Shown here: positions 3,096-63,626 of the stretch, piece after piece
How positions within the stretch are numbered: position 1 is the stretch's first letter
Layout: each line of letters starts with the position of its first letter
DNA from: Streptomyces sp. SCSIO 75703
Lineage (GTDB): Bacteria; Actinomycetota; Actinomycetes; Streptomycetales; Streptomycetaceae
Direction of reading: 5' to 3'
Assembly (NCBI RefSeq): GCF_036607905.1
Contig: NZ_CP144555.1
Location: 5,642,001-5,706,000 of the forward strand
DNA: 64,000 nt
Notes under the pieces: generated by a model
Seen by the model: the letters and a program-made list of their open reading frames with translations, nothing else
The model's database searches: none
What the model was told of the DNA's origin: nothing
Position numbers and translations under genes: made by a program

Positions 3096-3194
3096 CGGGC
3101 ACCGCCGCGGGCGAACCGCGGTCCGGGCGTGTCCCCGGGCCGTGCCGCCCGGGAGTGTTTCCCGCCCGACCGCCGACACGCCGACGACGGACTC

Positions 3195-3344: not shown

Positions 3345-3449
3345 CCCGCCGACGCGCCGATGGCGCGCGTGCCGGCCGGGCGCGGACCCGCCGCCGGTGC
3401 GCGGTAACTGCCGGGACGGCCGTGCCGGACCGCCGTACGCACGGACGCG

Positions 3450-5502: not shown

Positions 5503-5664
5503 ATGACGCAGTCGGCACCGACGCGGCAACGTCCGGCACGCCGCCACCCGGTGGTGGCGACGCTCATGGCCCTGCCCCTGGCGGCCCTGCTCCTGCTCGT
5601 CTTCGACGGGTGGGAGACGGTGGCCACACAGGCGTCGTCCGTGGGTGTGATGCTGGGGCGCTGA
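5503..5664 (+). CDS. Small single-pass membrane protein, 53 residues
   Basis: The ATG at 5503 follows AGGGAGGGACC, a very strong ribosome binding site, which decides this start over an upstream in-frame one. The product has a basic N-terminus (residues 1-15), one hydrophobic segment around residues 18-34 (VVATLMALPLAALLLLVF) and a short tail. A strong factor-independent terminator hairpin follows at 5752-5785, so this is probably a monocistronic unit. Function is unknown. From memory a small membrane protein occupies the same position in S. coelicolor. Confidence 0.75.
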   Translation: MTQSAPTRQRPARRHPVVATLMALPLAALLLLVFDGWETVATQASSVGVMLGR

Positions 5665-5751
5665 ACGGCGACCCCAGGCCCGGAAGAGCGGTCCGGGCGG
5701 GGACATCCCTCCATGAAACCCCGTGGGGACGGGGGTACGGCGGACGGCACG

Positions 5752-5785
5752 ATGCCGGGCGCGGCTGGGGAGCCGCGCCCGGCAT
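5752..5785 (+). terminator. Intrinsic terminator after the small membrane protein
   Basis: Perfect 15-bp stem (ATGCCGGGCGCGGCT and its complement) with a GGGG loop, followed by TTT. It lies 87 nt after the stop at 5664. Confidence 0.8.
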
Positions 5786-5826
5786 TTCCCCTTCCCGCCC
5801 CCGGGCCCCTCACCGCCGCGCCCCCG

Positions 5827-5832
5827 TACCCT
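5827..5832 (+). promoter_or_regulatory. -10 element 7 nt from start codon (leaderless promoter)
   Basis: TACCCT ends 7 nt before the GTG at 5840. This spacing places transcription start at or next to the start codon. No ribosome binding site is seen ahead of the GTG. Confidence 0.45.
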
Positions 5833-5839
5833 CACCCCC

Positions 5840-6805: not shown

Positions 6806-6905
6806 CCGGCCGCCGCGCCACGTAGGCTGCAACCGACCGCGTCCGGGCGGTGTCTGTCCCGGCGAGACGCGAAACAGCACCGACCGGCGAGGAGTCGAGC
6901 CCATC

Positions 6906-7205
6906 ATGCAGTGCCCCAAGTGCCACGCACCGATGCACACCTACCAGCGCAACGGCGTTCAGATCGAGCAGTGCAGCGGCTGCCGGGGGATCTTCCTGGA
7001 CTACGGGGAGCTGGAAGCACTGACCCGGCTGGAGGCCCAGTGGTCCCCGCCCGCCCCGCCGGCGCCGCCCGCCCCGCCGGCGCCGCCCGCCCCGCAGGCG
7101 TACCCGTCCGCCCCGGCCCCCGCCTGGGGCGCCCCGCACGGCGGCCACGGCCACTACGGCCACCACCGCCACCGCGGCTTCGGCCGCATGCTCTTCTCCA
7201 GCTAG
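6906..7205 (+). CDS. TFIIB-type zinc-ribbon protein
   Basis: A 99-residue protein. The N-terminal zinc ribbon has CPKC at residues 3-6 and CSGC about 22 residues later, then GIFLDYGELEAL, as in the zf-TFIIB family. A (PPAPPA)n stretch and a Gly/His-rich tail (GGHGHYGHHRHRG) follow and may bind metal. The exact role is unknown; such proteins are usually annotated as transcription-factor-like zinc fingers without proven function. GAGGAG lies about 12 nt upstream of the ATG. The TAG stop is the first part of a dispersed inverted repeat. Confidence 0.85.
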   Translation: MQCPKCHAPMHTYQRNGVQIEQCSGCRGIFLDYGELEALTRLEAQWSPPAPPAPPAPPAPPAPQAYPSAPAPAWGAPHGGHGHYGHHRHRGFGRMLFSS

Positions 7206-7264
7206 GGCCTTTCGTTGGGATCACGCCGGGCTCGGGGGGTCGGCCTGATCCCAACGAAAGACCC
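7203..7264. repeat. Dispersed hairpin element, copy A (overlaps TAG stop)
   Basis: Inverted repeat with arms CTTTCGTTGGGATCA and TGATCCCAACGAAAG separated by a G-rich spacer. The outer edge begins at the TAG stop of the zinc-ribbon gene. Related copies are at 39476-39524 and 43985-44045. It probably acts as a terminator. Confidence 0.85.
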
Positions 7265-7285
7265 CAGGGCCGCCGGGCACGACGA

Positions 7286-7316
7286 AGCCCCCGGCCGCAG
7301 GTGACGGCCGGGGGCT
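7286..7316 (-). terminator. Terminator of the tRNA operon
   Basis: Perfect 12-bp stem (AGCCCCCGGCCG and its complement) with a seven-base loop. It starts about ten bases beyond the 3' end of the last tRNA on the minus strand. It also lies between converging units, so it may serve both. Confidence 0.75.
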
Positions 7317-7326
7317 CCGGTGAGTG

Positions 7327-7398
7327 TGGACGATACTGGGATTGAACCAGTGACCTCTTCCGTGTCAGGGAAGCGCTCTCCCGCTGAGCTAATCGTCC
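7327..7398 (-). tRNA. tRNA-Val (GAC), copy 1
   Basis: Full cloverleaf of 72 nt: acceptor GGACGAT/ATCGTCC, D arm GCTC/GAGC, anticodon loop CTGACAC with anticodon GAC, T loop TTCAATC, discriminator A. CCA is not encoded. Last gene of the minus-strand operon Gly-Cys-Val-Val-Val. Confidence 0.97.
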
Positions 7399-7409
7399 TC
7401 GGGACTGCG

Positions 7410-7481
7410 TGCGCGATACTGGGATTGAACCAGTGACCTCTTCCGTGTCAGGGAAGCGCTCTCCCGCTGAGCTAATCGCGC
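7410..7481 (-). tRNA. tRNA-Val (GAC), copy 2 with different acceptor stem
   Basis: Same body and anticodon loop (CTGACAC) as the two neighbouring copies, but the acceptor stem is GCGCGAT/ATCGCGC. Both strands of the stem changed together, so pairing is kept. Discriminator A, no encoded CCA. Confidence 0.97.
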
Positions 7482-7521
7482 GGGGTGATCCTGGTGGATC
7501 GTATCGGTCCTGTCGGACCAG

Positions 7522-7593
7522 TGGACGATACTGGGATTGAACCAGTGACCTCTTCCGTGTCAGGGAAGCGCTCTCCCGCTGAGCTAATCGTCC
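7522..7593 (-). tRNA. tRNA-Val (GAC), copy 3
   Basis: Identical over its 72 nt to copy 1 as far as I can read, including acceptor GGACGAT/ATCGTCC and anticodon GAC. It is separated from copy 2 by about 40 bp. Confidence 0.97.
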
Positions 7594-7597
7594 GTGG

Positions 7598-7668
7598 AGG
7601 TGGAGACGGGATTTGAACCCGTGTAGACGGCTTTGCAGGCCGTTGCCTCGCCTCTCGGCCACTCCACC
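7598..7668 (-). tRNA. tRNA-Cys (GCA)
   Basis: 71-nt cloverleaf with acceptor GGTGGAG/CTCCACC, anticodon loop CTGCAAA (anticodon GCA) and T loop TTCAAAT. Discriminator U73 is the identity base expected for tRNA-Cys. It ends only 4 nt from the adjacent tRNA-Val. Confidence 0.97.
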
Positions 7669-7706
7669 AGGAGTGTAGGGGACCGGGAGGCCCCCTGTGT
7701 CCAGCG

Positions 7707-7779
7707 AGCGGACGACGAGGTTCGAACTCGCGACCTCAACCTTGGCAAGGTTGCGCTCTACCAACTGAGCTACGTCCGC
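7707..7779 (-). tRNA. tRNA-Gly (GCC)
   Basis: 73-nt cloverleaf with acceptor GCGGACG/CGTCCGC, anticodon loop TTGCCAA (anticodon GCC), T loop TTCGAAC and discriminator U. First gene of the minus-strand tRNA operon. Confidence 0.97.
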
Positions 7780-7820
7780 CTGTCGATTCGGTACGCTCCC
7801 GCGTCCCGGCGACGGGTTGA

Positions 7821-7848
7821 ACTCTAGCGGATTCCGGGGCCAGGACAA
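7821..7848 (-). promoter_or_regulatory. Promoter of the tRNA operon
   Basis: On the minus strand, TTGTCC (7843-7848) and TAGAGT (7821-7826) are separated by 16 bp, about 40 nt upstream of tRNA-Gly. This fits a housekeeping sigma factor promoter. Confidence 0.6.
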
Positions 7849-7944
7849 AAACGCGTTTGTGCAGCGTGCTGCGGTGCCCGTGGCCGCGTACCCGGTCAGG
7901 CCCACCGGGAGGCCACGTTCGAGTCATTTGCCCGCGGCCCCGCC

Positions 7945-7950
7945 TAGACT
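7945..7950 (+). promoter_or_regulatory. -10 element 7 nt from start codon (leaderless promoter)
   Basis: TAGACT ends 7 nt before the GTG at 7958. No Shine-Dalgarno sequence lies between them, so a leaderless transcript is likely. Confidence 0.6.
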
Positions 7951-7957
7951 CGGCCCC

Positions 7958-9004
7958 GTGTCCGACCTCTCGCCCCTGGCCCGCTTCCGGGATCGCCTCG
8001 CCACCGGCCTCCTCGATGTCACGAGCGACCCCGCCGCGCTCGAATCCGGCGGCTTCTGGGCCGTCTGCGCGGACTTCGAGGGCCGTCTGACCTGCGCCCG
8101 GTTCGCCGACGTCCGGTACGCGCCGGTCCCCGCGCCGGTGCCGGGCGCCTGGGCCGGACCGGGCACCGGCGACTGGGCGTCCTCGCTCGACCGCGCCGCG
8201 TACACCGCGGCCGTGCGGCGCATCCGCGACCACATCGCCGCCGGCGACGTCTACCAGGCCAACCTGTGCCGCGTGCTGTCGGCGCCCGTCGCCCCCGGCG
8301 CCGACGTGGACGCCCTCACCGCCCTGCTGGCCCAGGGCAACCCCGCCCCGTACGCCGGAACGATTCGGCTGCCGGCGCACGGGGTGGAGCTGGCCACCGC
8401 CTCGCCCGAGCTGTTCCTGCGCCGCGCGGGCTCCGTCGTCGAGTCCGGGCCCATCAAGGGCACCGGACGCACCGAGGCGGACCTGCTGGAGAAGGACCAC
8501 GCGGAGAACGTCATGATCGTGGACCTGGTCCGCAACGACCTCGGCCGGGTCTGCGTCCCCGGCAGCGTGAGCGTGCCCGACCTGTGCGCCGTGGAGAAGC
8601 ACCCCGGCCTGGTCCACCTCGTCTCCACGGTGCGCGGCGAACTGCTCCCGGACGCCGGCTGGCCCGCCCTGCTGGACGCCGCCTTCCCGCCCGGCTCGGT
8701 CACCGGCGCCCCCAAACCCAGCGCCCTCGGCATCATTGGCGAGCTGGAGACCGCGCCGCGCGGCCCCTACTGCGGGGGCGTCGGCTGGGTCGACGCCGAC
8801 CGGTCCACGGGCGAGCTGGCGGTCGGCATCCGCACCTTCTGGATCGACCGGGCCGCGGGGCTGCTGCGCTTCGGCACCGGCGCCGGCATCACGTGGGGCT
8901 CCGACCCCGAGCGGGAGTGGCGGGAGACCGAACTGAAGGCGGCCCGGCTGCTCGCGGTAGCGTCGGGCGTGTACGAGGTGACCGGAGAGGGACTACCGAC
9001 GTGA
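7958..9004 (+). CDS. Chorismate-binding enzyme, PabB-like aminodeoxychorismate synthase component I
   Basis: A 348-residue protein of the TrpE/PabB/menaquinone-specific family. The chorismate-binding core covers about 90-335 and shows ASPELFLRR, SGPIKGTGRT, VMIVDLVRNDLGRVC and GSVTGAPKPSALGII, with the usual C-terminal YCGGVGW and GTGAGITWGS. PIKGT in this position is typical of PabB-type enzymes rather than of salicylate synthases. It should aminate chorismate with an amidotransferase partner, which is not in this window. The gene downstream, with a GTGA overlap, is a PabC-like lyase, so the pair probably makes p-aminobenzoate for folate or a secondary product. The in-frame ATG at 7817 lies on the opposite side of a good -10 element and was rejected. 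Confidence 0.87.
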   Translation: MSDLSPLARFRDRLATGLLDVTSDPAALESGGFWAVCADFEGRLTCARFADVRYAPVPAPVPGAWAGPGTGDWASSLDRAAYTAAVRRIRDHIAAGDVYQANLCRVLSAPVAPGADVDALTALLAQGNPAPYAGTIRLPAHGVELATASPELFLRRAGSVVESGPIKGTGRTEADLLEKDHAENVMIVDLVRNDLGRVCVPGSVSVPDLCAVEKHPGLVHLVSTVRGELLPDAGWPALLDAAFPPGSVTGAPKPSALGIIGELETAPRGPYCGGVGWVDADRSTGELAVGIRTFWIDRAAGLLRFGTGAGITWGSDPEREWRETELKAARLLAVASGVYEVTGEGLPT

Positions 9005-9822
9005 AGATCTGGCTCGACGGCGGGCTGCGCGACACCGACGCCGCCCGCGTCTCCGCCTTCGACCACGGACTGACCGTGGGCGACGGCGTCTTCGAGACCG
9101 TCAAAGCGGTGCACGGCAGGCCGTTCGCCCTGACCCGGCACCTCGCCCGGCTGGCCCGCTCGGCCGGCGGCCTGGGCCTGCCCGAACCCGACCTCGACGA
9201 GGTCCGCCGGGCCTGCGCGGCCGTGCTCGACGCCAACCCCGTGGAACTGGGCCGGCTGCGCATCACCTACACCGGCGGCCCCGGCCCGCTCGGCTCCGAC
9301 CGCGGCGACGCCGGGACGACCCTGCTCGTCGCCGTCGGCGCCACCGCCCGGCGCCCCGACACCACGGCCGTGGTGACCGTGCCCTGGACCCGCAACGAGC
9401 GCGGCGCCGTCACCGGCCTGAAGACCACCTCGTACGCCGAGAACGTGGTCGCCCTGGCCCGCGCCCACGAACAGGGCGCCACCGAGGCCCTGTTCGGCAA
9501 CACCCGGGACCGGCTGTGCGAGGGCACCGGCTCCAACGTCTTCGTCGTCCTCGACGGCGAACTCCACACCCCGCCGGTGGAGTCCGGCTGCCTCGCCGGC
9601 ATCACCCGCGCCCTGGCCGTCGAGTGGACCGGTGCCCGGGAGACGGACCTCCCGCTCGACGTCCTGGAACGGGCCGACGAGGTCTTCCTCACCTCCACCC
9701 TGCGCGACGTGCAGGCCGTGCACCGCGTCGACGGCCGCGCGCTGGCGGACGCGCCCGGCCCGGTCACCGCCAAGGCCATGCGGATCTTCGACGAGCGCTC
9801 CGCCGCCGACCTGGACCCCTGA
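9001..9822 (+). CDS. Aminotransferase class IV, 4-amino-4-deoxychorismate lyase-like
   Basis: A 273-residue fold-type IV PLP enzyme. Landmarks are DHGLTVGDGVFETVKA near residue 21, the likely PLP lysine in GLKTTSYAENVVA near residue 140, and ATEALFGNTRDRLCEGTGSNVFVV, which binds the cofactor phosphate. The GTG start overlaps the upstream stop (GTGA), indicating translational coupling with the PabB-like gene. With that partner it most likely releases pyruvate from aminodeoxychorismate to give p-aminobenzoate. Branched-chain or D-amino acid aminotransferase activity is the alternative within this family. Confidence 0.85.
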   Translation: MKIWLDGGLRDTDAARVSAFDHGLTVGDGVFETVKAVHGRPFALTRHLARLARSAGGLGLPEPDLDEVRRACAAVLDANPVELGRLRITYTGGPGPLGSDRGDAGTTLLVAVGATARRPDTTAVVTVPWTRNERGAVTGLKTTSYAENVVALARAHEQGATEALFGNTRDRLCEGTGSNVFVVLDGELHTPPVESGCLAGITRALAVEWTGARETDLPLDVLERADEVFLTSTLRDVQAVHRVDGRALADAPGPVTAKAMRIFDERSAADLDP

Positions 9823-9892
9823 CCGGCCCGCCGGGCGGAAGTGCCCGGAAAACCGGAGGTCACGGCCCGCCCCGGTCGGGTAGAACACCTTG

Positions 9893-10717
9893 ATGACCAC
9901 GACCCTGCGGCCGGCCGAGCCGCTTCAGTTCGCCCCCGACGGCAGCCGTTCACGCCGCTACCAGGTGTGCGTGAACAGCCGTCCCGTCGGCGCGGTCCAC
10001 CTCGGCACCTCGCCCGGCCTCGGCGACACGGTGGCCGTGATCCTCGACCTGCGCGTCGACGAGCCCGACCGGCGCCGGGGCCGGGCCACCGTCGCCGTGC
10101 TCGCCGCGGAGGAGGTCGCGCGCGGCTGGGGCTGCCGGCAGATCGAGGCGAGCGTCCCCGCCGACGCGGCCCCCGCCCTGCTGCTGGCCGGGGCGCTGGG
10201 CTACGTCCCGCGCAACCGCCTGCTCGCCAAACCGCTCGGCGCCACCGGGCCCGCCCTCCCGCCGGGCCGCCGCGCCCGCCCGATGACCCGGGACGAGTAC
10301 GCCGACTGGAGCGTGCGGGAGGCCGAGCGGTACGCGCGGACGTGGAGGGAGCGGGGCGTGCCCGAGGAGGCGGCCCGTGCCAAGGCGCGCGGCGACCACG
10401 AGAGCCTGCTGCCCCGGGGGCAGGACACCGAGAACGCGCTGTTCAGCGTGGTCGAGGAGGAGGGCGTCCCGGTCGGCACCCTGTGGCTGGCGCTGCGCGA
10501 GGACGAGGCGTTCGTCTACGACGTCGAGGTCGACGCGGCCCACCGGGGCCGTGGCCACGGCCGCACGCTGATGCTGCTGGCGGAGCGCCAGGCGATCGCC
10601 GCCGGACGCCGCCGCCTCGGTCTCAACGTCTTCGCCGGCAACGCCCCGGCCGAGCGGCTCTACGCCTCCCTCGGCTACGAGACGGTCCGGCACCACCTGT
10701 GGAAGCCGCTGCTGTAG
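9893..10717 (+). CDS. GNAT acetyltransferase with two tandem domains
   Basis: A 274-residue protein. The N-terminal GNAT-like half (about 15-120) has DLRVDEPDRRRGRATVAVL and a glycine-rich acetyl-CoA loop. The C-terminal half (about 130-274) has VYDVEVDAAHRGRGHGRTLMLLAE, the standard acyl-CoA pyrophosphate-binding motif A, and ends NAPAERLYASLGYE. Substrate is unknown. The ATG at 9893 is 6 nt after TAGAAC, so the mRNA may also be leaderless. The next gene converges on it with only 22 bp between. Confidence 0.83.
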   Translation: MTTTLRPAEPLQFAPDGSRSRRYQVCVNSRPVGAVHLGTSPGLGDTVAVILDLRVDEPDRRRGRATVAVLAAEEVARGWGCRQIEASVPADAAPALLLAGALGYVPRNRLLAKPLGATGPALPPGRRARPMTRDEYADWSVREAERYARTWRERGVPEEAARAKARGDHESLLPRGQDTENALFSVVEEEGVPVGTLWLALREDEAFVYDVEVDAAHRGRGHGRTLMLLAERQAIAAGRRRLGLNVFAGNAPAERLYASLGYETVRHHLWKPLL

Positions 10718-10739
10718 CGGCGACGCGGGTCCCGGAGGC

Positions 10740-11264
10740 TCACTCCCCGTCGCCGGCCAGCAGCCGGTCGGCGATCTCCTCGACGCGCTCGCGCAGTCCC
10801 TCCTGGCTCTTGCCGCCGTCCAGCCGTTCGCCGCCGATGACGTAGGTGGGGGTGCCGGTGACGCCGATGGCCTTGCCCTCGGCGTGGTCGGCGTCGACGA
10901 TCAGGATGTGCCGGCCGTCGATCAGCGCCGTGTCGAACTCCTCGGCGTCCAGGCCGAGTTCGCGGGCCACCTCGACCAGGAAGGGCTCGCCGCCCCGGTC
11001 CAGCTCCTCGACTCGGCGCAGCACGGCCTCGACGTAGGGCCAGCCCCGCCCCTGCTCGGCGGCCTCCTCGGCGGCCTGCGCGGCGGCGAAGGAGTGCCGG
11101 TGCTTCTCCAGCGGGAAGTGCCGCAGCCGTACGTCGAGGCGGTCGCCGTAGCGGGCGCGCAGGGCGGTCAGGTCGTCCAGGGCGGTACGGCAGTCGGGGC
11201 ACTGCAACTCGCACCACACGTCGAGGACGGCGACGGCGGGACGATCGGCGGGGAAGTCACTCAT
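10740..11264 (-). CDS. Cytoplasmic DsbA/FrnE-like thioredoxin-fold protein
   Basis: A 174-residue thioredoxin-fold protein. Its redox motif CPDC is at residues 23-26 (WCELQCPDCRTAL), and a cis-Pro loop GVTGTPTYVIGG lies near residue 138, with an alpha-helical insertion between, as in the DSBA family. There is no signal peptide or membrane segment, so it should act in the cytoplasm as an oxidoreductase or isomerase. Its partner is unknown. It is an independent minus-strand gene between an acetyltransferase and a small membrane protein. Confidence 0.85.
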   Translation of the reverse strand: MSDFPADRPAVAVLDVWCELQCPDCRTALDDLTALRARYGDRLDVRLRHFPLEKHRHSFAAAQAAEEAAEQGRGWPYVEAVLRRVEELDRGGEPFLVEVARELGLDAEEFDTALIDGRHILIVDADHAEGKAIGVTGTPTYVIGGERLDGGKSQEGLRERVEEIADRLLAGDGE

Positions 11265-11473
11265 CCCCCCAGTCTCCCAGCCCGGCCGCGCCGCACCGGA
11301 CCGGGCCGGTGACGCGTGGCCCGCCGGGGATCCCGCCCCCGAGGTCCCGCGCGGCCCCTACCCCGAGATGTCCCTGATCTTCGCGTCCGGGCGTGGCCTC
11401 CGGGGGGCCGGGGGGTGCAGGATGGAAGGGGCGAAACGCTCGTCCTCGACCCGAGCCCGACCAGGAGGACCGG

Positions 11474-11926
11474 ATGATTGCCGAGACCGTCTGCTCAGCC
11501 GTGTCCGCGGCGGGCCTGGGCATCGCGGCGGTCACCGCGTACCGCAGGCGCTTCCTCACCGCGGTCCGCGTGGCCGCGTACGCGCTGGTCCCGGTCGGCC
11601 TCGTGATGACGGGCGTCGTCAAGTGGCTCGCCGGCACCGCCTTCAGCCCGACGGCGTGGGCCGGATTCGCCGTGCTGGGCCTGGCCTGGCTGCTCTTCAT
11701 GATCACGCGTGCCGTGGAGCGCCGCCGCGGCGGCAGCCGCGGGCGGCGCGGGGAGACCGGGGCCGCGGCCGAGTCCGGCCCGGTGGCGCCCGGCGCCTCC
11801 CGGCCCTCCCTGGGCTCGTCGGCCTCCCGTCCGGCGGCCGGGGCCTCCGGCTCCTCCGCGGCGCCGGCCAAGGGGGAGGACGACTTCAGCGACATCGAGG
11901 CCATCCTCAGGAAGCACGGCATCTGA
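11474..11926 (+). CDS. Two-pass membrane protein of unknown function
   Basis: A 150-residue protein. AGGAGG lies 8 nt upstream of the ATG, which fixes the start. Hydrophobic segments cover about residues 5-22, 33-51 and 62-76, so two or three membrane passes are likely. An Arg-rich region and a Ser/Ala/Pro-rich disordered tail follow and end in an acidic stretch EDDFSDIEAILRKHGI, which resembles a protein-binding helix. I recognise no functional domain. Confidence 0.75.
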   Translation: MIAETVCSAVSAAGLGIAAVTAYRRRFLTAVRVAAYALVPVGLVMTGVVKWLAGTAFSPTAWAGFAVLGLAWLLFMITRAVERRRGGSRGRRGETGAAAESGPVAPGASRPSLGSSASRPAAGASGSSAAPAKGEDDFSDIEAILRKHGI

Positions 11927-12114
11927 GGCGGCTCCTACCGGTGCGCGGACGTGGTGGCGTCCGCGCACCGCAACGTCCCAGTGATCCGAGCCCGGCACCG
12001 TACGCTCCGTAATGATCACGAGGCGAAGCGGAGAGTGCGGAACCCGCGGCCATCCGGTCTCCGGGTGCGCCCGAATCGCGCCGGCCGGGGACGCTGGGTC
12101 ATCATCGCCGCGAG

Positions 12115-12294
12115 ATGCCCGACCCCACTCGGCTGGAAGCCCAGCCGGATACGAGACAGAGTGCCACCGCGCCCCCTCCGGACGAGACGCGCGGCTGCCT
12201 CTTCGCCCTGTCCCAGCCACCGCTGATGATCTTCCTGGCGGTGATCGGGTCCCTGCTGCTCATGGCGTCCTTGCACGACCTGCTGTTGCTGTGA
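12115..12294 (+). CDS. Very small single-pass membrane protein, 59 residues
   Basis: An ATG at 12115 opens a 59-codon frame ending TGA at 12292-12294. The first 30 residues are hydrophilic (Pro, Asp, Thr rich, with RGCLF). The C-terminal half is one strongly hydrophobic helix (PLMIFLAVIGSLLLMASLHD) ending in Leu residues. The layout of a short polar N-terminus and a terminal membrane anchor argues for a real protein, although the upstream GCCGCGAG is only a weak ribosome binding site. Function unknown. Confidence 0.6.
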   Translation: MPDPTRLEAQPDTRQSATAPPPDETRGCLFALSQPPLMIFLAVIGSLLLMASLHDLLLL

Positions 12295-12415
12295 GCCGTA
12301 CACCGCGCTCCCCGGCGCCACCCGCCGGGGAACGCGTCCTCACCGGGCGACCCGTCCACGCGGCGCGGCATCCGGGACCGGCGGGCCCGCGCCGGGCCGG
12401 ACCCAGCGCGCGGCG

Positions 12416-12976
12416 TCAGCGCGCGGCCTCCTTGCGCCGCGCCCGGTACGCGGCCACGTGCAGCCGGTTTCCGCAGGTCCGGCTGTCGCAGTAGCGGCGG
12501 GACCGGTTACGGGAGAGGTCGACGAAGGCCCGTCGGCAGTCCGGGGCCTCGCAGCGCCGCAGCCGCTCCTGCTCACCGGCGACCACGAACAGGGCCAGCG
12601 ACATCCCGCAGTCCGCGGCGAGGTGGTCGGCGACGGAGGCGCCGGGCGCGAAGTAGTGGATGTGCCAGTCGTAGCCGTCGTGGTCGGTGAGCCGGGGCGT
12701 GGTGCTCGCGGCGGCCACCAGTTCGTTGATCAGGGTGGCCGCGGACCGGGCGTCCGGTGCGGCGAAGACGGCCGCGAACCGCGCCCGCACCGAGCGCACC
12801 GCCGTGAGGTCGTGGTCCGCCAGCGCGCCGACATCACTGATGGCGTGCGCGCTCACGAACTCCTCCAGGGCCGCCACGTCCGGCAGCCCGTCAGGCGTCG
12901 CGTCGTCCTCGGGGACGGTGTTCACCAGATCCACCACGGTGTCGAGGGCGCACCGGATGTCGTGGGTGATCAGCAC
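12416..12976 (-). CDS. CGNR zinc-finger protein with ABATE domain, putative regulator
   Basis: A 186-residue protein. The N-terminal ABATE-like region (about 5-125) contains LVNT near residue 17 and HIHYFAPG. The C-terminal CGNR zinc finger (about 140-180) shows RRCEAPDCRRAFVD followed by RRYCDSRTCGNR, which gives four Cys ligands. These proteins are presumed stress-responsive DNA-binding regulators in actinomycetes. The GTG at 12976 is preceded by GGGAGC at good spacing, so longer in-frame starts were rejected. Its target genes cannot be inferred. Confidence 0.88.
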   Translation of the reverse strand: MLITHDIRCALDTVVDLVNTVPEDDATPDGLPDVAALEEFVSAHAISDVGALADHDLTAVRSVRARFAAVFAAPDARSAATLINELVAAASTTPRLTDHDGYDWHIHYFAPGASVADHLAADCGMSLALFVVAGEQERLRRCEAPDCRRAFVDLSRNRSRRYCDSRTCGNRLHVAAYRARRKEAAR

Positions 12977-13217
12977 GTTCTGCTCCCTGGCCTGGGGGTC
13001 GGGCGGGCGCCCGCCGATGCTGGCCGATCGTACTGGCTTCCACGCCGGGCGCACCGGCCCCGATCCAGCCCCCGGGGAGGGAGACGCGGGCACGCGCGCG
13101 CCGGCGCCGCCGCGGTGGATGTCCGCCGCGACGACGCCGGTCTGTGCCCTATGCGGTTGTCCAGGCCCGTGCCGTCACCCCGAGTCGACGGCGACGGGCT
13201 GCTTCACGGGTCCCGCC

Positions 13218-13631
13218 CTAGCTTTCCGCCAGGATGTGCGAGAGCTCCTGGTCGAGATCGAAGTGCCGGTGTTCCGTGCCGGGGGGCACGGCGGCGTCGG
13301 TGCGCTTCAGGAAGGACTCCAGGGCCCGCGCGGGGGCCTCCAGCAGCGCTTCGCCCTCCGGGGAGCTGAGGGCGATGCACACGACGCCCTGGCCGTGACT
13401 GCGGGACGGCCAGACCCGGACGTCGCCGGTGCCCGTGGGGCGGTGGAGCCCTTCGGCGAGGAGGTCGCGGGCGAACACCCACTCGACGGTTTCCTCGGCT
13501 CCGGTGTGGAAGGTGGCGTGCACGGCATAGGGGTCGGCCGTGTCGTACCGCAAGCCTGCGGGGACGGGCAGGGAGGACTCGCTCGACACAACGAGGCGCA
13601 GGTGCAGCTCGCAGCTGACCGTGGTGTTCAT
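13218..13631 (-). CDS. ssgB: SsgB, sporulation cell-division activator
   Basis: A 137-residue SsgA-like protein that I recognise as SsgB from its sequence: VSCELHLRLVV at the N-terminus, ADPYAVHATFHTG, VRVWPSRSHGQGVVC, and a C-terminus ending ELSHILAES. SsgB marks future septum sites in sporulating aerial hyphae and helps recruit FtsZ (established in S. coelicolor). The ATG at 13631 gives the usual length; the upstream extension to 13697 is not family sequence. It stands alone, divergent from a small membrane protein, with an AT-rich control region between. Confidence 0.96.
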   Translation of the reverse strand: MNTTVSCELHLRLVVSSESSLPVPAGLRYDTADPYAVHATFHTGAEETVEWVFARDLLAEGLHRPTGTGDVRVWPSRSHGQGVVCIALSSPEGEALLEAPARALESFLKRTDAAVPPGTEHRHFDLDQELSHILAES

Positions 13632-13822
13632 AAGCGCCAGGGCCTTTCGCTCAGTGTGCGCTCGGGGATTCGCACGTCGGCGAAATCGACATGCCACCTA
13701 CGGTGGCGTTGTAAACCCCTCTGAGTGTTTTGCGTGCCTTTATGTAACCCTTCCGGCCGAGTGATCGTTCGAGGTCCACACCCGTTCCGGTGAGGCGTTT
13801 CGCTTCGGTAGTGTTCGGCGTC
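13632..13822. promoter_or_regulatory. Divergent control region of ssgB and the PGPGW protein
   Basis: About 190 bp, distinctly AT-richer than its surroundings between 13705 and 13760. It contains the perfect inverted repeat GCCACC-TAC-GGTGGC at 13693-13707, about 62 bp upstream of ssgB, a candidate operator. A TAGTGT hexamer at 13809-13814 lies 8 nt before the ATG at 13823 and suggests leaderless transcription rightward. The ssgB promoter itself could not be assigned. Confidence 0.45.
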
Positions 13823-14278
13823 ATGAACACGGGGAGTGACAGGGGCGGTGACCGGGACGCCGGGGCGGACCGGCCGGAGGCGGACGGGGCGGCCTCCGGC
13901 GGCCGGGTGCCCGGTTCCCGGGCGCCGGCCTTCGTGCGGGAGCGGCGAGCCCTGCACGTGAGCTGGCAGGTCGCGGTCTTCCTGGTCGGCCTCGCGGTCG
14001 TGGCGGCCGGGGTCCTGATGCTGGCGCTGCCCGGACCCGGCTGGGTCGTGATCTTCGGCGGCATGGCGATCTGGGGCACCGAGTTCGCCTGGGCCCAGCT
14101 CGTGCTGCGCTGGACCAAACGCAAGGTCACCGAGGCGGCGCAGCGCGCTCTCGACCCGAGGGTGCGGCGCCGCAACATCGTCCTGACCGTGATCGGGACG
14201 GTCGTCGCCGCCGCGCTGATCAGCGTCTATCTGGGGAAGTACGGCTTCCGGGCGCCCTGGTCGACAGGGGGTCCCTGA
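13823..14278 (+). CDS. TIGR02611-type transmembrane protein (PGPGW motif)
   Basis: A 151-residue protein. A polar N-terminus (about 1-45) is followed by a hydrophobic pair of helices around residues 53-85 that contain LPGPGWVVIFGGMAIWG, the PGPGW family signature. A basic cytoplasmic segment (WTKRKVTEAAQRAL) and a last membrane helix near residues 120-140 complete it. Function is unknown. It is found beside ssgB in streptomycetes (from memory), but nothing in the sequence ties it to division. Confidence 0.85.
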   Translation: MNTGSDRGGDRDAGADRPEADGAASGGRVPGSRAPAFVRERRALHVSWQVAVFLVGLAVVAAGVLMLALPGPGWVVIFGGMAIWGTEFAWAQLVLRWTKRKVTEAAQRALDPRVRRRNIVLTVIGTVVAAALISVYLGKYGFRAPWSTGGP

Positions 14279-14360
14279 GTCCGCGAGCGGGTGTGGTGCC
14301 CGGTCGTGCGCAGCCGGTCACGAGCACCCTCTGACATGCGGTAATGTTCTTCCTGCGTCC

Positions 14361-14432
14361 GGGCGATTAGCTCAGTGGGAGAGCGCTTCGTTCACACCGA
14401 AGAGGTCACTGGTTCGAACCCAGTATCGCCCA
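14361..14432 (+). tRNA. tRNA-Val (CAC), copy 1
   Basis: 72-nt cloverleaf: acceptor GGGCGAT/ATCGCCC, anticodon loop TTCACAC with anticodon CAC, T loop TTCGAAC, discriminator A. TAATGT at 14342-14347 is a plausible -10 element. A strong terminator follows. Confidence 0.97.
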
Positions 14433-14438
14433 CCGGAT

Positions 14439-14483
14439 CGACAGGCGGCCCGGCTCACCCTCCGTGAGCCGGGCCGCCTGTCG
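14439..14483 (+). terminator. Terminator of tRNA-Val copy 1
   Basis: Perfect 20-bp stem beginning CGACAGGCGGCC with a five-base loop, followed by TTT. It starts 7 nt after the tRNA. Confidence 0.9.
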
Positions 14484-14830
14484 TTTGCCCGCGACGCTCC
14501 CGGGCGGGTCTTCGGAGCGGTTCAGGGGGTCCCGCGCGCCCGTTCGGCGGCGGTCCCGTACCGGCCGACGATCACGCTCCGTCACCGCCGGCCGGGGCTG
14601 CGGACGGCCGTCGGCGGCACGCCGGGCGCCCGGCGGAGAGCCCACCCCCGTGTGAGGTCAAGGACGAGTTCCGGCCGTGCCGTGCCTCCCGGGAACGTCA
14701 ACGCGCCTGCGTTCGGGGGGAATTCGGCGGACACCGCGAGAGGCCGCGGAAATCTCCGTCAATTCACCGCAAAGAATGGCCCATGTGTTCTCTGCGAACA
14801 GGCCGGGGCGGGGCACGGCAGACTGCCCGC
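14484..14830. other. Intergenic stretch without recognisable gene
   Basis: About 350 bp between the tRNA terminator and the SRPBCC gene. Open frames on both strands lack family sequence or good ribosome binding sites. The part from 14700 to 14790 is less GC-rich and may hold a promoter. CAGACT at 14819-14824 lies 6 nt before the next GTG. Confidence 0.5.
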
Positions 14831-15280
14831 GTGGACTGGAACCATTACCGTTTCCGCAGCCTCTGGACCCTGCCCGCGCCGCCCGGCGAGGTGTACCGCG
14901 CCCTGGAGCGCGTCGAGGACTACCCGCACTGGTGGCCCCAGGTGCGCGAGGTCACCCGGCTCGACGCCACCGGCGCCCGCCTGCGCATCCGCTCCCTGCT
15001 GCCCTACGACCTCACCGTCACCCTGCGCGAGTCCGCGCGCTCCCCGGTGGCCGGCGTGCTGGAGGGGGTCCTCGGCGGTGACATGGACGGCCGGGCCCGC
15101 TGGACGCTCACCCCCGGGCCCGGGGGCGGCACCCTCGTCCGCTACGACCAGGAGGTCGACCTCCGCAAACCCCTGCTGCGCCGGCTGGCCGTGCCCGCAC
15201 GGCCGCTGCTGCGGGCCAACCACGCCCTGATGATGCGGGCGGGCCGGCGCGGTCTGGCCGGGCGGCTGGCGGCGGTTTGA
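14831..15280 (+). CDS. SRPBCC (START/polyketide-cyclase-like) protein
   Basis: A 149-residue protein of the Bet v1-like SRPBCC fold. Typical pattern: APPGEVYRALERVEDYPHWWPQVREV at residues 13-38, then alternating strands with RWTLTPGPGGGTLVRYDQEVDL, and a long C-terminal helix (LRANHALMMRAGRRGLAGRL). Such proteins bind hydrophobic ligands or act as cyclases; the ligand is unknown. The upstream in-frame ATG at 14783 was rejected because the fold begins right after GTG 14831. A tRNA promoter overlaps its stop codon. Confidence 0.82.
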   Translation: MDWNHYRFRSLWTLPAPPGEVYRALERVEDYPHWWPQVREVTRLDATGARLRIRSLLPYDLTVTLRESARSPVAGVLEGVLGGDMDGRARWTLTPGPGGGTLVRYDQEVDLRKPLLRRLAVPARPLLRANHALMMRAGRRGLAGRLAAV

Positions 15281-15306
15281 AGGAAGCGAGCCGGGGCCTG
15301 TATGGT
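15277..15306 (+). promoter_or_regulatory. Promoter of tRNA-Val copy 2
   Basis: TTGAAG (15277-15282) and TATGGT (15301-15306) with an 18-bp spacer, ending 13 nt before the tRNA. The -35 element overlaps the TGA stop of the SRPBCC gene. Confidence 0.7.
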
Positions 15307-15319
15307 TCAGTCCGTTCCC

Positions 15320-15391
15320 GGGCGATTAGCTCAGTGGGAGAGCGCTTCGTTCACACCGAAGAGGTCACTGGTTCGAACCCAGTATCGCCCA
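15320..15391 (+). tRNA. tRNA-Val (CAC), copy 2
   Basis: The 72-nt sequence reads identical to the copy at 14361-14432, including acceptor GGGCGAT/ATCGCCC and anticodon CAC. Flanks differ, so each copy has its own promoter and terminator. Confidence 0.97.
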
Positions 15392-15399
15392 CCGGGAAG

Positions 15400-15426
15400 A
15401 GCCGGTCCGTCGACGACGGACCGGCT
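15400..15426 (+). terminator. Terminator of tRNA-Val copy 2
   Basis: Stem AGCCGGTCCGTC with its perfect complement and a GAC loop, followed by TTCT. Confidence 0.85.
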
Positions 15427-15437
15427 TTCTCATGCGC

Positions 15438-16150
15438 TCAGGCCGCCGCCGGCAGGTCCGGCCGCAGCGGCCGGACCGGGTCCGTCGGCTCCGGCGCCGC
15501 GTCCGGCGCGAACCACGGCCGCGCCCCGCGCGCCACACCGCCTGCAAGGTGTGCGGTTCGGCGGCGGAGGGCGGTTCCGGACGGGCCGCGTGGCGGCACC
15601 CCACGACCCGTACCGGCTCCAGCGCGGCACGGGCGTCCGGCCGCCGCGTCGTGGGCCCGCTCCGACGCGGTGCCGTAGTGCGCGCACCGGCCGGCCAGGG
15701 TGCGCCGGCCCTCCCGGTGCCGGCCCAGGTGGCGGTCGAGCACCAGCGGATCCAGGACGTGCGGCGGCGCCCTGTCTCCCGCCGCGCCCCAGCGAAGAGG
15801 CCCGGTGGCGGCGCAACTTCCGGTCCGGCAGCGTCAGGCCGAAGGGCGCGTTCATCACCGCCACGGGACGGCCCGTGGCGGCCTGCTCGGTCAGCGCCTC
15901 GACGAACTCGTGGACCACCGGCGCCGGCCGGCGGCCGTGGTGCCGGAGGCGTTCCCCGGTCGGCCCGCACACCGCCGTCGACGCCTCCGGCACCGGTACC
16001 CCGGGGTTGACCGGCCACCGGTGACCCGCGGGGCCCGTCCCGGGGCGTCCTGCGTGACGACGGCCGCCGCCACGATCCCGCCGGCCTCGACGTGCACGCC
16101 GTCGTCTCCGTGGCGAAGGTGGCCGGCGGTCCCTCGAACCAGCTCGTCAT
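15438..16150 (-). pseudogene. DEDD-type 3'-5' exonuclease (DnaQ-like) pseudogene
   Basis: Pieces of one exonuclease of about 240 residues lie in order but in different minus-strand frames: MTSWFEGPPATFATETT from ATG 16150, then VEAGGIVAAAVVTQDAPG, then EFVEALTEQAATGRPVAVMN and APFGLTL, then LDRHLGRHREGRRTLAG and CAHYG, then DARAALEPVRVVG and HTLQAVW, and finally RPLRPDLPAAA ending at the TGA at 15438. At least four or five frameshifts are needed; the first is a missing G after the ACGACG near 16098. The first catalytic motif reads ATE instead of DTE, so the Asp is lost as well. The gene is clearly dead. An intact paralogue elsewhere in the genome would explain its loss. Confidence 0.85.
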
Positions 16151-59694: not shown

Positions 59695-60663
59695 ATGCAG
59701 CACGCAGTGGGGTCTCCGCTGCCGCCGCCCCACCAGCCGGGGCACGGACCGGCCGCCGGCTGGTCCCCGGCCGCGCACCAGCCGGGGCCGCACCACCAGG
59801 GCCCCGCCCCCGTGCCCCCGCCCCCGGGCCACCCGATGCGGGCGCCCCGGCCCGGGACGCCCCCGCCGGGCCCGCAGCGGCCCGGCGCGCACCAGCCGGG
59901 CGCCGGGCAGCCCGGCGTACCGCACCCCGGTCCGCCGCGGACCGGAGCCCCGCACCCCACGGCCCCCGGACAGCCGCCCGCCCCGCAACACCCGGCGCCG
60001 CACGCGCCCGCCACGGACGTCACCGGTCACGTACCGCTGCCCCCGGGTGGTCCCGTCGCCGCCCCGCACCTGCCCGGCGCCCCCTCGGCCATGCCCGACC
60101 CGGCCACCGCCACCCTCGCCGTCCTGCTCATCGGACCGGCCGGCGCCGGCAAGACGACCGTCGCCAAGTACTGGGCCGACCACCGCCGCGTGCCCACCGC
60201 CCACATCAGCCTCGACGACGTCCGCGAGTGGGTCCGCTCCGGCTTCGCCGACCCCCAGTCGGGCTGGAACGACCACTCCGAGGCCCAGTACCGCCTCGCC
60301 CGCCGCACCTGTGGCTTCTCGGCCCGCAACTTCCTCGCCAACGGCATCTCGTGCATCCTCGACGACGCCGTCTTCCCCGACCGCCCCGTCGTCGGCCTCG
60401 GTGGCTGGAAACGGCATGTCGGCCCCGGGCTGCTCCCGGTCGTCCTGCTGCCCGGACTGGACATCGTCCTGGAGCGCAACGCCGCCCGCAGCGGCAACCG
60501 GCGGCTCACCGACGAGGAGGTCGCCCGCATCCACGGCCGGATGGCCGGCTGGTACGGGTCGGGCCTGCCCATCATCGACAACTCCCAACTCGGCATAGCG
60601 GAGACGGCCCGGGTCCTGGACGAGGTCCTGGCCCGTTCCATAGCCAGCCCGCCCCAGTGGTAG
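59695..60663 (+). CDS. P-loop ATPase/kinase with Pro-rich N-terminus
   Basis: A 322-residue protein. Residues 1-130 are a Pro/Gly/His/Gln-rich disordered region with repeated HQPG units. The C-terminal domain (about 138-320) is a small-molecule or zeta-toxin-like P-loop kinase: Walker A LLIGPAGAGKTTVAKYW near residue 143, ISLDDVREWVRSGF near 172, and a lid-like ERNAARSGNRRLTDEEVARIH near 262. Substrate is unknown. The gene lies between aroB and the M24 gene in streptomycetes (from memory). The start ATG follows GGAGTGGCACCGG. Confidence 0.82.
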   Translation: MQHAVGSPLPPPHQPGHGPAAGWSPAAHQPGPHHQGPAPVPPPPGHPMRAPRPGTPPPGPQRPGAHQPGAGQPGVPHPGPPRTGAPHPTAPGQPPAPQHPAPHAPATDVTGHVPLPPGGPVAAPHLPGAPSAMPDPATATLAVLLIGPAGAGKTTVAKYWADHRRVPTAHISLDDVREWVRSGFADPQSGWNDHSEAQYRLARRTCGFSARNFLANGISCILDDAVFPDRPVVGLGGWKRHVGPGLLPVVLLPGLDIVLERNAARSGNRRLTDEEVARIHGRMAGWYGSGLPIIDNSQLGIAETARVLDEVLARSIASPPQW

Positions 60664-60778: not shown

Positions 60779-60784
60779 TAGGCT
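60779..60784 (+). promoter_or_regulatory. -10 element 6 nt from start codon (leaderless promoter)
   Basis: TAGGCT ends 6 nt before the ATG at 60791, with no ribosome binding site. Confidence 0.55.
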
Positions 60785-60790
60785 CGGCTC

Positions 60791-61897
60791 ATGTCAGAGG
60801 TGTACGCGGCCCGCCGGACGCGCCTACGGGAACGCTGCGACGCGGGCGGCAGCGCGGCGGTACTGGTCTCCCGCCCCGCCAACGTGCGCTACCTCGCGGG
60901 CGCCGCCCCGCACGGCGCGGTACTGCTGCTCGGCGGGGACGAGGACCTCCTCGTCCACGGAGGACCGCCCTACGCCCGCCCCACCGAGGGCCGGCCCGAC
61001 GAGAACCTGCGGGTCCACGTCCTGCCCGGACCCGGCGGCGACCCCGCCGTCGCCGCCGCGGACATCGCCGCCGCACGCGGCGCCGACTCCCTCGCCACCG
61101 AGGACCACCACCTCACCGTCGCCCGCCACCGCGCCCTGCGCTCCGTCGCGCCCCGGCTGCGCCTGAACGACCTCGGGGGAGCGGTGGAACAACTCCGGGT
61201 GATCAAGGACGAGGAGGAGATCTCCTTCCTGCGCATCGGCGCGGAGATCGCCGACCAGGCCCTCGGCGAACTCCTCGAATCCATCCTGGTCGGCCGCACC
61301 GAGCGGCACCTCGCCCTGGAACTGGAACGGCGCCTGGTCGACCACGGCGCCGACGGCCCCGCCTTCCCCACCTCCGTGGCGACCGGCCCGCACTCGGGCC
61401 GCCGCGGCCACCGCCCCAGCGACCGCCGGGTGGAGGAGGGCGACTTCCTCTCCGTCTGCCTCGGCGCCGACTACCGCGGCTACCGCTGCGAGATCGGCCG
61501 GACCTTCGTCATCGGCACCTCGCCCGCCGACTGGCAGATCGACCTGTACGATCTGGTCTTCTCCGCCCAGCGGGCCGGCCGCGAGGCCCTCGTACCGGGT
61601 GCGGCCTGCCGTGATGTGGACCGCCTCACCCGCCAGCCGCTGGACTCCGCGGGGTACGCGGAGTACCTGCCGCCGCTCACCGGGCACGGCGTGGGGCTGG
61701 AAATCGGCGAGGACCCGCAATTGGCCCCCGCGGCCATGGGTAAACTGGACGCTTGTGTGCCGGTCACCGTCGAACCGGGAGTCCACCTCCCGGGCCGGGG
61801 CGGGGTCCGGATCGATGACACGCTCGTCGTGCGCCCCGAGGCGGACGGCGGACCCGAGCTACTCACCATCACGACCAAGGAGCTGCTCGCGCTCTAG
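60791..61897 (+). CDS. M24 (Xaa-Pro peptidase) family protein with altered metal ligands
   Basis: A 368-residue protein with the creatinase N-terminal domain (about 1-125) and the pita-bread M24 domain. The five metal ligands of aminopeptidase P are D, D, H, E, E. Here the first Asp is Cys223 ([12 protein letters not shown]), the second Asp is Glu234 (RCEIGRTF), His299 (GHGVGLEI) and Glu328 (VEPGVHLPG) are kept, and the last Glu is Asp342 ([10 protein letters not shown]). Activity is therefore doubtful or metal preference changed. It precedes efp by 58 bp, the usual pepQ-efp order. Annotated pepQ-like by position; a non-peptidase role is possible. Confidence 0.85.
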
Positions 61898-61955: not shown

Positions 61956-62522
61956 GTGGCTTCCACGAACGACCTCAAGAACGGCATGGTGCTCAAGCTC
62001 GAAGGCGGCCAGCTCTGGTCCGTCGTCGAGTTCCAGCACGTCAAGCCCGGCAAGGGCCCGGCCTTCGTGCGCACCAAGCTCAAGAACGTGCTCTCCGGCA
62101 AGACCGTCGACAAGACCTTCAACGCCGGTGTCAAGGTCGACACCGCCACCGTCGACCGCCGCGACATGCAGTTCTCCTACATGGACGGCGACTACTTCGT
62201 CTTCATGGACATGGAGACCTACGACCAGCTCCACGTCGACCGCAAGGTCGTCGGGGACACCGCCCACTTCCTGGTCGAGGGCTTCGAGGCCACCGTCGCC
62301 CAGCACGAGGGCGAGGTGCTCTCCGTCGAGCTGCCCGCGGCCGTCGAGCTGACGGTCCAGGACACCGAGCCCGGCGTCCAGGGCGACCGCTCCACCGGCG
62401 GCACCAAGCCCGCCACGCTGGAGACCGGCCACCAGATCCAGGTCCCGCTCTTCATCACCACCGGTGAGAAGATCAAGGTCGACACCCGCACCAGCGACTA
62501 CCTCGGCCGGGTGAACGGCTAA
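61956..62522 (+). CDS. efp: Translation elongation factor P
   Basis: A 188-residue EF-P that relieves ribosome stalling at polyproline. Three beta-barrel domains. The loop that contacts the P-site tRNA reads KPGKGPAF with Lys33 at the tip. The PGKGP form is typical of actinobacteria, and no EpmA or EarP modification gene is seen here. GTG 61956 follows AGGAGATTCC. nusB starts 2 bp after the stop, so the two are one unit. Proline-rich proteins in this window (P-loop protein, MltG, zinc-ribbon) are likely clients. Confidence 0.97.
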
Positions 62523-62524: not shown

Positions 62525-62959
62525 GTGGCTGCTCGCAACACGGCCCGCAAGCGCGCCTTCCAGATCCTCTTCGAGGGCGACCAGCGCGGTGCCGATGTCC
62601 TGACGGTCCTCGCCGACTGGGTCCGGCACGCCCGGTCCGACACCCGGCAGCCGCCGGTGAGCGAGTACACGATGGATCTCGTGGAGGGCTACGCCGTGCG
62701 CGCCGCGCGCATCGACGAGCTGATCGCCCAGTACGCGGTGGGCTGGACGCTCGACCGGATGCCGGTCGTCGACCGCAACATCCTGCGGCTGGGTGCCTAC
62801 GAGCTGATCTGGGTCGACGCCACCCCGGACGCCGTCGTCCTCGACGAGATGGTCCAGCTCGCCAAGGAGTTCTCCACGGACGACTCGCCGGCCTTCGTCA
62901 ACGGGCTGCTCGGCCGGCTCAAGGAGCTGAAGCCGTCGCTGCGCCGGGAAGACGCCTGA
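62525..62959 (+). CDS. nusB: Transcription antitermination factor NusB
   Basis: A 144-residue all-helical protein binding boxA RNA with S10. Starts ARNTARKRAFQILFEGDQRG, with LDRMPVVDRNILRLGAYELIW near residue 77 and the typical end DDSPAFVNGLLGRL. GTG start. Followed by a strong 16-bp terminator stem, which closes efp-nusB. Confidence 0.96.
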   Translation: MAARNTARKRAFQILFEGDQRGADVLTVLADWVRHARSDTRQPPVSEYTMDLVEGYAVRAARIDELIAQYAVGWTLDRMPVVDRNILRLGAYELIWVDATPDAVVLDEMVQLAKEFSTDDSPAFVNGLLGRLKELKPSLRREDA

Positions 62960-63122: not shown

Positions 63123-63626
63123 TCAGCCCTCCTCGTGGGTGGCGACCGCGCGGCGCGCGTCCGCGTCCAGCACACCCCAGCTGATGAGCTGCTCGGTCAG
63201 CACCGAGGGCGACTGGTCGTAGATCACGGCGAGGGTGCGCAGGTCGTCCTGGCGGATCGAGAGCACCTTGCCGTTGTAGTCACCGCGCTGCGACTGGATC
63301 GTGGCGGCGTACCGCTGGAGGGGGCCCGCCTTCTCGGCCGGCACGGTGGCCAGCCGTTCCAGGTCCAGGACCAGCTTCGGCGGCGGCTCGGCCGCGCCGC
63401 CCGGGGTCGTCCCCGGCAGCAGCTCCTGCACGGGAACGCCGTAGAAGTCCGCCAGCTCGGCGAGGCGCTGCACCGTCACGGCGCGGTCGCCGCGCTCGTA
63501 CGAACCGACCACCACGGCCTTCCAGCGGCCCTGGGACTTCTCCTCGACACCGTGGAGGGAAAGGCCCTGCTGGGTGCGGATGGCCCGGAGCTTGGCCCCG
63601 AGCTGTTTGGCGTATTCGCTGGACAT
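63123..63626 (-). CDS. bldD: BldD, c-di-GMP-responsive master repressor of development
   Basis: A 167-residue repressor that holds back sporulation genes during vegetative growth. Residues 1-79 are an HTH_3 DNA-binding domain (AKLRAIRTQQGLSLHGVEEK). The C-terminal domain has the c-di-GMP signature RGD (114-116), eight residues, RQDD (125-128), exactly as in the studied protein. Family knowledge: a tetramer of c-di-GMP brings two C-terminal domains together so BldD can bind DNA. ATG 63626 is preceded by GGGAG and gives the known length; a five-residue longer start is rejected. Confidence 0.98.
   Translation of the reverse strand: MSSEYAKQLGAKLRAIRTQQGLSLHGVEEKSQGRWKAVVVGSYERGDRAVTVQRLAELADFYGVPVQELLPGTTPGGAAEPPPKLVLDLERLATVPAEKAGPLQRYAATIQSQRGDYNGKVLSIRQDDLRTLAVIYDQSPSVLTEQLISWGVLDADARRAVATHEEG

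Follow-up and report, generated by a model that had tools for sequence, protein, structure and literature searches.

Elongation factor P (EF-P) relieves stalling at runs of proline. In Firmicutes, an Xaa-Pro aminopeptidase has been reported to colocalize with efp, and a joint action of the two is proposed in a passage of PMC7327921; indeed, passages of the same article and of PMC4993169 propose that leftover proline peptides are cleared by a neighboring or related Xaa-Pro peptidase. The gene order pepQ-efp-nusB is termed a putative conserved operon in a portion of PMC3359211, which, along with a portion of PMC13118837, also reports bldD adjoining nusB and efp in Streptomyces and Saccharopolyspora. 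A table of Bacillus subtilis sporulation mutants in PMC4703394 includes both yqhT and efp mutants. As for the enzymes themselves, a passage of PMC5774706 gives His243 and His361 of Escherichia coli aminopeptidase P (AMPP) as active-site residues and describes an Asp-Arg-Tyr relay. Within the M24 fold, Ebp1/PA2G4 is presented in passages of PMC11266112 as a pseudopeptidase located at the ribosomal exit, with two of the five metal ligands retained.

The window analyzed here, a 64,000-nucleotide stretch of the genome of Streptomyces sp. SCSIO 75703, contains an efp-linked M24 gene whose product is, to judge by its residues, very likely to be catalytically dead. The open reading frame (positions 60791 to 61897, forward strand) encodes 368 amino acids plus a stop codon, with a Creatinase_N domain (residues 8 to 138; Pfam, 50.2 bits against a cut-off of 22) followed by the pita-bread domain (Peptidase_M24; residues 147 to 348, 169.9 bits against a cut-off of 23). 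The protein is of the M24B type (prolidase/aminopeptidase P). The solved chains nearest to it belong to prolidases of archaea and bacteria, such as the Pyrococcus furiosus prolidase (PDB code 1pv9; E value of 1.3e-48), and the methionine aminopeptidase (MetAP) model scores 39.3 bits, under its cut-off of 171.35, the best matches being prolidases. Both trees and gene order support orthology to the efp-linked actinobacterial pepQ. Below, orthologs with D-D-H-E-E metal ligands are termed canonical and those lacking that set are termed dead. Prolidases and aminopeptidases P are also the best fold neighbors in the PDB of a moderate-confidence AlphaFold model, built from 43 dead-clade sequences (with an average pLDDT of 68.8); since the pLDDT is below 50 from residue 297 to residue 368, the pocket cannot be judged from this model.

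Against the canonical D-D-H-E-E, the ligand set of the window protein reads C223, E234, H299, E328, and D342, with two of the five residues kept. The sequence-only reading, which named the replacement of Asp by Cys223, of Asp by Glu234, and of Glu by Asp342 and the retention of His299 and Glu328, agrees on all five with the alignment to 1pv9, and the coordinates that it gave for the reading frame are correct. The alignment with 1pv9 and other proteins is collinear, with C223 and E234 occupying the positions of the Asp/Asp pair, and no canonical Asp pair is found elsewhere in this prolidase alignment. The codons for Cys223 (61457 to 61459) and Glu234 (61490 to 61492), which, like all those given below, lie on the forward strand, each stand where active enzymes have a ligand Asp (D in 64/64 canonical and 0/105 dead orthologs at either position). 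The retained ligands His299 (61685 to 61687) and Glu328 (61772 to 61774) are found in 94 and 86 of the 105 dead orthologs, respectively. The last, Asp342 (61814 to 61816), replaces a ligand Glu of active enzymes, and the dead orthologs have D in 87 cases, E in 17, and G in 1.

The losses had been understated in that reading; three active-site His residues, the relay Tyr, and the TDxRY motif are gone as well. Gly206 (61406 to 61408), Pro295 (61673 to 61675), and Gly306 (61706 to 61708) occupy positions that carry active-site His residues in active enzymes, with His present in only 2, 5, and 2 of the 105 dead orthologs. By a numbering match that is our own, these positions correspond to residues 243, 350, and 361 of E. 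coli AMPP, His350 being taken from the title of PDB entry 2bww. His332 (61784 to 61786) stands in place of the Tyr of the Asp-Arg-Tyr relay of X-Pro enzymes (H in 99/105 dead and Y in 64/64 canonical orthologs), and the relay as a whole, again in our own mapping, reads C223, R340, and H332 here, with the Arg alone kept. Ten catalytic residues are thus reduced to three (H299, E328, and R340) in the window protein. In the N-terminal domain, T56, D57, R59, and Y60 of the TDxRY motif are kept in 0 to 5% of the dead orthologs, and the old mode of substrate handling is therefore unlikely.

These counts rest on an ortholog pool made up of the best M24 match from each of 174 loci together with the window, obtained through searches of 150 Streptomyces, 296 class-level, 150 family-level, and 119 order-level genomes; a part of the matches was taken, with preference for the best and the most divergent ones, and the sample is therefore nonrandom. 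Leaving aside a 444-residue protein that is likewise noncanonical (L142, EAHEQ), two split frames (L146 and L147), and three identical copies, there are 169 distinct intact orthologs, 64 with D-D-H-E-E and 105 without it. The latter show 25 ligand sets, among them CEHED (59 proteins), RQHED (13 proteins), VSHGE (4 proteins), CEHDD (3 proteins), and ASHGE (3 proteins). The loci from named genomes (n = 80) uniformly lack the canonical set and comprise CEHED (69 loci), GEHED (3 loci), SEHED (2 loci), and one locus each with RAHED, REHED, RQYED, SSHGE, SRHGE, and AAAGE. On the question, raised earlier, of whether the same substitutions are conserved across Streptomyces, the absence of D-D-H-E-E therefore holds throughout the named loci, but the exact replacement set does not, CEHED accounting for 69 of the 80.

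When the active-site columns are removed, the canonical and dead sets form the two sides of a single branch with 100* support. A local sequencing slip is ruled out, since 105 of the 169 orthologs lack D-D-H-E-E on one side of that branch and so do all of the named loci. In a mixture-model tree of 112 of the 169 rows, which omits 57 rows (near copies of the CEHED type and canonical rows with less than 44% identity), the stem of the dead clade has a length of 0.55 changes per column, and its join to the nearest canonical genera has an SH-aLRT value of 90% and is not starred. A FastTree tree includes all 169 rows under a simpler model and carries a long-branch warning among the outer canonical rows. 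On the 112-row tree, the catalytic columns change repeatedly, the fewest changes needed being 16 at residue 223, 14 at 234, 22 at 206, and 21 at 306. The dead side includes Streptomyces, Kitasatospora, Streptacidiphilus, Streptantibioticus, and further genera, while canonical proteins occur in two genera of the same family (g115 and g118; seven proteins) and in two other families of the order (members of f47 and of genus g132 of f48). The gene is widespread in Streptomyces, with an M24 match of at least 434 bits in 146 of 150 genomes; of the four others, efp too is absent from three, and the remaining one is truncated by a contig end.

The pattern of change inside the dead clade bears directly on what the altered site might do. 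One possibility, suggested in the sequence-only reading, is that CEHED is a site rebuilt for another metal (e.g., Zn or Fe) in an enzyme that remains an active hydrolase in Streptomyces. It is the commonest state, as the above counts indicate, and all five of its residues could in principle bind metal. However, residue 223 in the 105 dead orthologs is C in 65, R in 20, A in 11, S in 4, V in 4, and G in 1, and residue 234 is E in 68, Q in 14, S in 12, R in 7, and A in 4. Within a single genus and in intact frames, R, S, G, and A recur at the former position and Q, R, and A at the latter. His299 is lost in 11 of the 105 (to E, A, G, and other residues), and residue 328 is E in 86, G in 14, D in 3, and A in 2. 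Cys223 is also far less conserved than its neighbors V222 (104/105) and G225 (105/105). This is not the tolerance of a working site, and the drift of the ligand columns, together with the loss of the three His residues, the relay Tyr, and TDxRY, argues against the different metal, an idea to which we accord very little likelihood. As a separate observation, residues 223 and 234 (positions 61457 to 61492) seem to covary, in that C is mainly paired with E, R with Q or R, and A or V with S; it looks as if packing on neighboring strands has replaced metal binding.

Outside the site, much of the protein is preserved. We compared columns whose constancy reaches at least 95% among the 64 canonical orthologs, namely, ten catalytic columns and 62 others. 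Seven of the ten catalytic columns are kept in fewer than 20% of the dead orthologs, and 47 of the 62 others persist in 95% or more of them (Mann-Whitney P = 1.4e-4); likewise, the seven of ten contrast with 11 of the 62 others for which retention falls below one-half (Fisher P = 0.0016). These eleven include T56, D57, R59, and Y60 as well as columns 205, 232, 236, and 296, which are adjacent in sequence to catalytic residues. Of the columns compared, 37 do not vary at all among the dead orthologs that have a residue there. A scaffold that is constant around a site that is not fits a binding protein. The dead set has, in addition, clade-specific residues of its own, G203 (105/105), H332 (99/105), and R232 (93/105), and these could be taken as signs of a creatinase-like, metal-free hydrolase that acts on a new substrate, creatinases having the same M24 fold. 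Against this, residue 206, the first His of the PHH motif and presumably the place of the creatinase base, is almost always Gly, Ala, Arg, Asp, or Asn, with H in the 2 of 105 cases noted above, and sister lineages differ in their pocket residues. A new hydrolase of this kind thus appears most improbable.

The rates of substitution likewise speak for a protein that is still in use. Among the Streptomyces-type dead orthologs (89 proteins and 3,843 pairs), the median NG86 dN/dS ratio is 0.281 for the M24 gene, 0.281 for nusB, and 0.343 for efp, and among the canonical pairs, it is 0.522 for M24, close to the 0.525 of nusB; NG86 is distorted by the very high third-position GC content, making the comparison between genes informative and the absolute value not. 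In 16 Kitasatospora-type proteins, the values are 0.482 for M24, 0.245 for nusB, and 0.499 for efp, and the constraint on M24 is weaker there than in the Streptomyces-type proteins. The sequence-only reading held that the gene is not decaying because it is intact next to efp; the statement is true, though intactness in that place is weak evidence by itself, and the constraint on the sequence is the real evidence. Its suggestion of a possible pseudoenzyme is borne out by catalytic residues that are lost clade-wide in a gene whose scaffold is kept and which does not decay. On these grounds, it is highly probable that the product still functions as a protein.

Two signs of decay were considered and rejected. 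The M24 frame is split in two loci of Streptomycetaceae (G505 and G498), and we read these splits as assembly errors because nusB (in G505) and efp (in G498) are split there too. In five genomes of the clade (G467, G630, G079, G050, and G111), no full M24 match was obtained; efp is missing in every one of them, and these cases are hence read as assembly gaps.

A surviving but inactive protein might also act by pairing with an active M24 paralog and regulating it. Seven other M24 proteins were found in this genome, all with D-D-H-E-E; some look like methionine aminopeptidases, and one (L001) is the nearest to the window protein. M24B enzymes dimerize, and their N-terminal domain can contribute to the partner's site in trans. 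A dimer has been shown for DddP and is stated for creatinase and prolidases in a passage of PMC4108388. Yet, with TDxRY lost, completion of a partner's site in the usual way is unlikely, and in some Streptomyces genomes a second M24 match is absent at the cut-off used. We regard such a regulatory subunit as improbable, if less so than either of the hydrolases considered above.

The gene neighborhood hints at a role. Downstream of the M24 gene, separated by 58 bases, lies efp (61956 to 62522, forward strand; GTG start, with a PGKGP loop in the product), which is followed by nusB (62525 to 62959, forward strand). The order M24-efp-nusB on one strand is found in every one of the 254 loci where M24 was matched, whether canonical or dead (some being copies of one genome), with a median of about 60 bases separating M24 from efp. 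Downstream of nusB, on the reverse strand, is a gene (63123 to 63626) for what is probably the developmental regulator BldD, to judge by the start of its sequence and its position. An aroB-efp-nusB arrangement without M24 was observed in two genera of family f48 in the same order (g133 and g134; loci L220, L221, and L222), and the absence of M24 between aroB and efp means that EF-P does not need it there. The M24-efp neighborhood is ancestral and could be a matter of inertia.

The PGKGP form of the EF-P loop is commoner with the dead set (93/105 genomes) than with the canonical set (23/64, with PGKGG in at least 40/64) but is not exclusive to it, and a conserved loop switch was accordingly rejected. 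A comparison of EF-P columns between the dead and canonical sets found none that switches along with the loss of the site, and the branch-rate covariation between M24 and efp (rho of 0.09) points to no special link.

A TAGGCT element resembling a -10 box (60779 to 60784, forward strand) lies 12 nt before the M24 ATG. The pattern TANNNT is present 11 to 14 nt before the M24 start in 102/103 dead and 40/64 canonical loci, with shuffled sequences giving 0.8 to 2.1%, and at the same distance before the efp start it is found in 0/168 loci; the transcript therefore probably begins at the M24 ATG. The element probably represents a leaderless promoter of the M24-efp unit, as far as its sequence and spacing indicate; a scan of the region with the sigma-70 consensus found no promoter-like site. 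It could be argued that M24 is retained merely as a leader cistron, for the sake of this promoter and of translational coupling into efp, in keeping with the near-universal element before M24, its absence before efp, and the short distance between the two genes. Such a view leaves unexplained why the protein itself is under selection, with 37 fully constant columns and a Streptomyces-type dN/dS ratio equal to that of nusB; a shorter or frameshifted leader would serve equally, and g133 and g134 manage without an M24 leader. We give it only a very slim chance.

The gene upstream of M24 (59695 to 60663, forward strand; start codon uncertain) encodes a P-loop NTPase (AAA_33) whose N-terminal tail is rich in Pro and corresponds to the NCBIfam Pro-rich N-terminal domain NF040555. 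In 93 orthologs, the tails have a median length of 109 residues, if the open frame is taken to start at its first ATG, and a proline content of 33%, with PPP present in 77. This NTPase gene is beside M24 at 173/188 dead loci and 0/66 canonical loci. Of the 15 dead loci without it, eight extend no more than 450 bases beyond M24 on its upstream side, and the other seven fall in six genomes with Kitasatospora/Streptacidiphilus codes, the NTPase being farther off or on another contig. The NTPase domain is 73 to 94% identical to that of the window in the dead-M24 genomes listed. Across the 296 class-level genomes, 28 Streptomyces genomes were positive and one other gave a weak match, and three more weak matches (27 to 32% identity) were obtained among the canonical genomes. 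The gain of the NTPase and the loss of the M24 site lie on the same branch and count as one event on the tree, and the branch-rate covariation of M24 with the NTPase (0.37) is below that with aroB (0.49) and nusB (0.39), giving no sign of special coupling. Coevolution of M24 with the Pro-rich NTPase or with EF-P was thus set aside, branch rates carrying no special signal.

In five of the genomes with Kitasatospora/Streptacidiphilus codes, the spacing between the NTPase and M24 is about 7 to 14 kb, and in L141, it is 3 kb. In L219, this stretch (2700 to 15900) contains genes for a NicO nickel transporter, an Fpg-type glycosylase, a DUF4011 AAA protein, and an epimerase.

Taking these findings together, we propose as the probable explanation that the M24 protein is a maintained pseudoenzyme that acts by binding, with a tentative place in EF-P-linked translation. 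As the sequences support, the Xaa-Pro peptidase of the pepQ-efp-nusB neighborhood lost its metal site, active-site His residues, and proton relay on the branch from which Streptomyces, Kitasatospora, Streptacidiphilus, and their allies descend and then stayed under selection at the protein level as a folded, noncatalytic protein, which would work through binding rather than cutting. Its most likely role would be that of an adaptor or competitor in EF-P-linked translation, with a proline-containing nascent chain or partner protein bound by the former substrate face or by the invariant parts of the outer scaffold, a mode comparable to that suggested for Ebp1, the M24 pseudopeptidase of the ribosomal exit. 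A dead protein could not have the clearing of peptides as its role in this clade. The individual parts of this proposal differ in strength; a tie of the role to EF-P or translation, suggested by the gene neighborhood, is put forward tentatively, at somewhat less than an even chance, and a proline-rich ligand is doubtful. It is also conceivable, though rather unlikely, that the protein is a bacterial counterpart of Ebp1 in a fuller sense, with the EF-P-linked M24 always having had a noncatalytic job in translation and the Streptomycetaceae branch having kept only that job; in such a case, M24 would read proline-rich segments, possibly the NTPase tail, and the PPP-containing protein, the dead Xaa-Pro peptidase, and EF-P would constitute one proline-centered module.

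Family models call this gene an Xaa-Pro peptidase, while its residues predict a product that does no cutting in Streptomyces, Kitasatospora, Streptacidiphilus, and the genera related to them. By retaining the partner of EF-P without its chemistry, such a lineage would amount to a natural catalytic-dead experiment, which could separate the proteolytic idea from a binding role. The question is testable in a model Streptomyces, for which we take SCO1492 to be the locus tag of the M24 gene. In the open-access literature searched, we found no paper on this pseudoenzyme.

Among known systems, the closest by descent are PepQ, including that of pepQ-efp-nusB, and aminopeptidase P (YqhT/PapA in B. subtilis). 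The window protein is an ortholog of the actinobacterial efp-linked pepQ product by tree and gene place and has the same fold and scaffold residues; these enzymes have five ligands, in contrast to two here, and the three His residues, the relay Tyr, and TDxRY are absent from the window protein. Creatinase and the ectoine hydrolase DoeA, which are M24 proteins other than peptidases, also have the same fold. Creatinase retains a catalytic His, whereas in the window protein this His is lost and the pocket is variable. Like the window protein, the DMSP lyase DddP combines the M24 fold with a changed role, but its binuclear metal site is described as invariant in a passage of PMC4108388, whereas the ligands vary in the family of the window protein. 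With Ebp1, there is a candidate likeness in an M24 fold without a full metal site and in a tie to translation. However, Ebp1 is MetAP-like, eukaryotic, and ribosome bound, whereas the window protein is prolidase-like and bacterial, and its prolidase matches, with the MetAP model under the cut-off, place it outside the Ebp1 subfamily. It would hence be a bacterial M24 pseudopeptidase of the prolidase type, to set beside Ebp1, the only M24 pseudopeptidase named in the review passages of PMC11266112.
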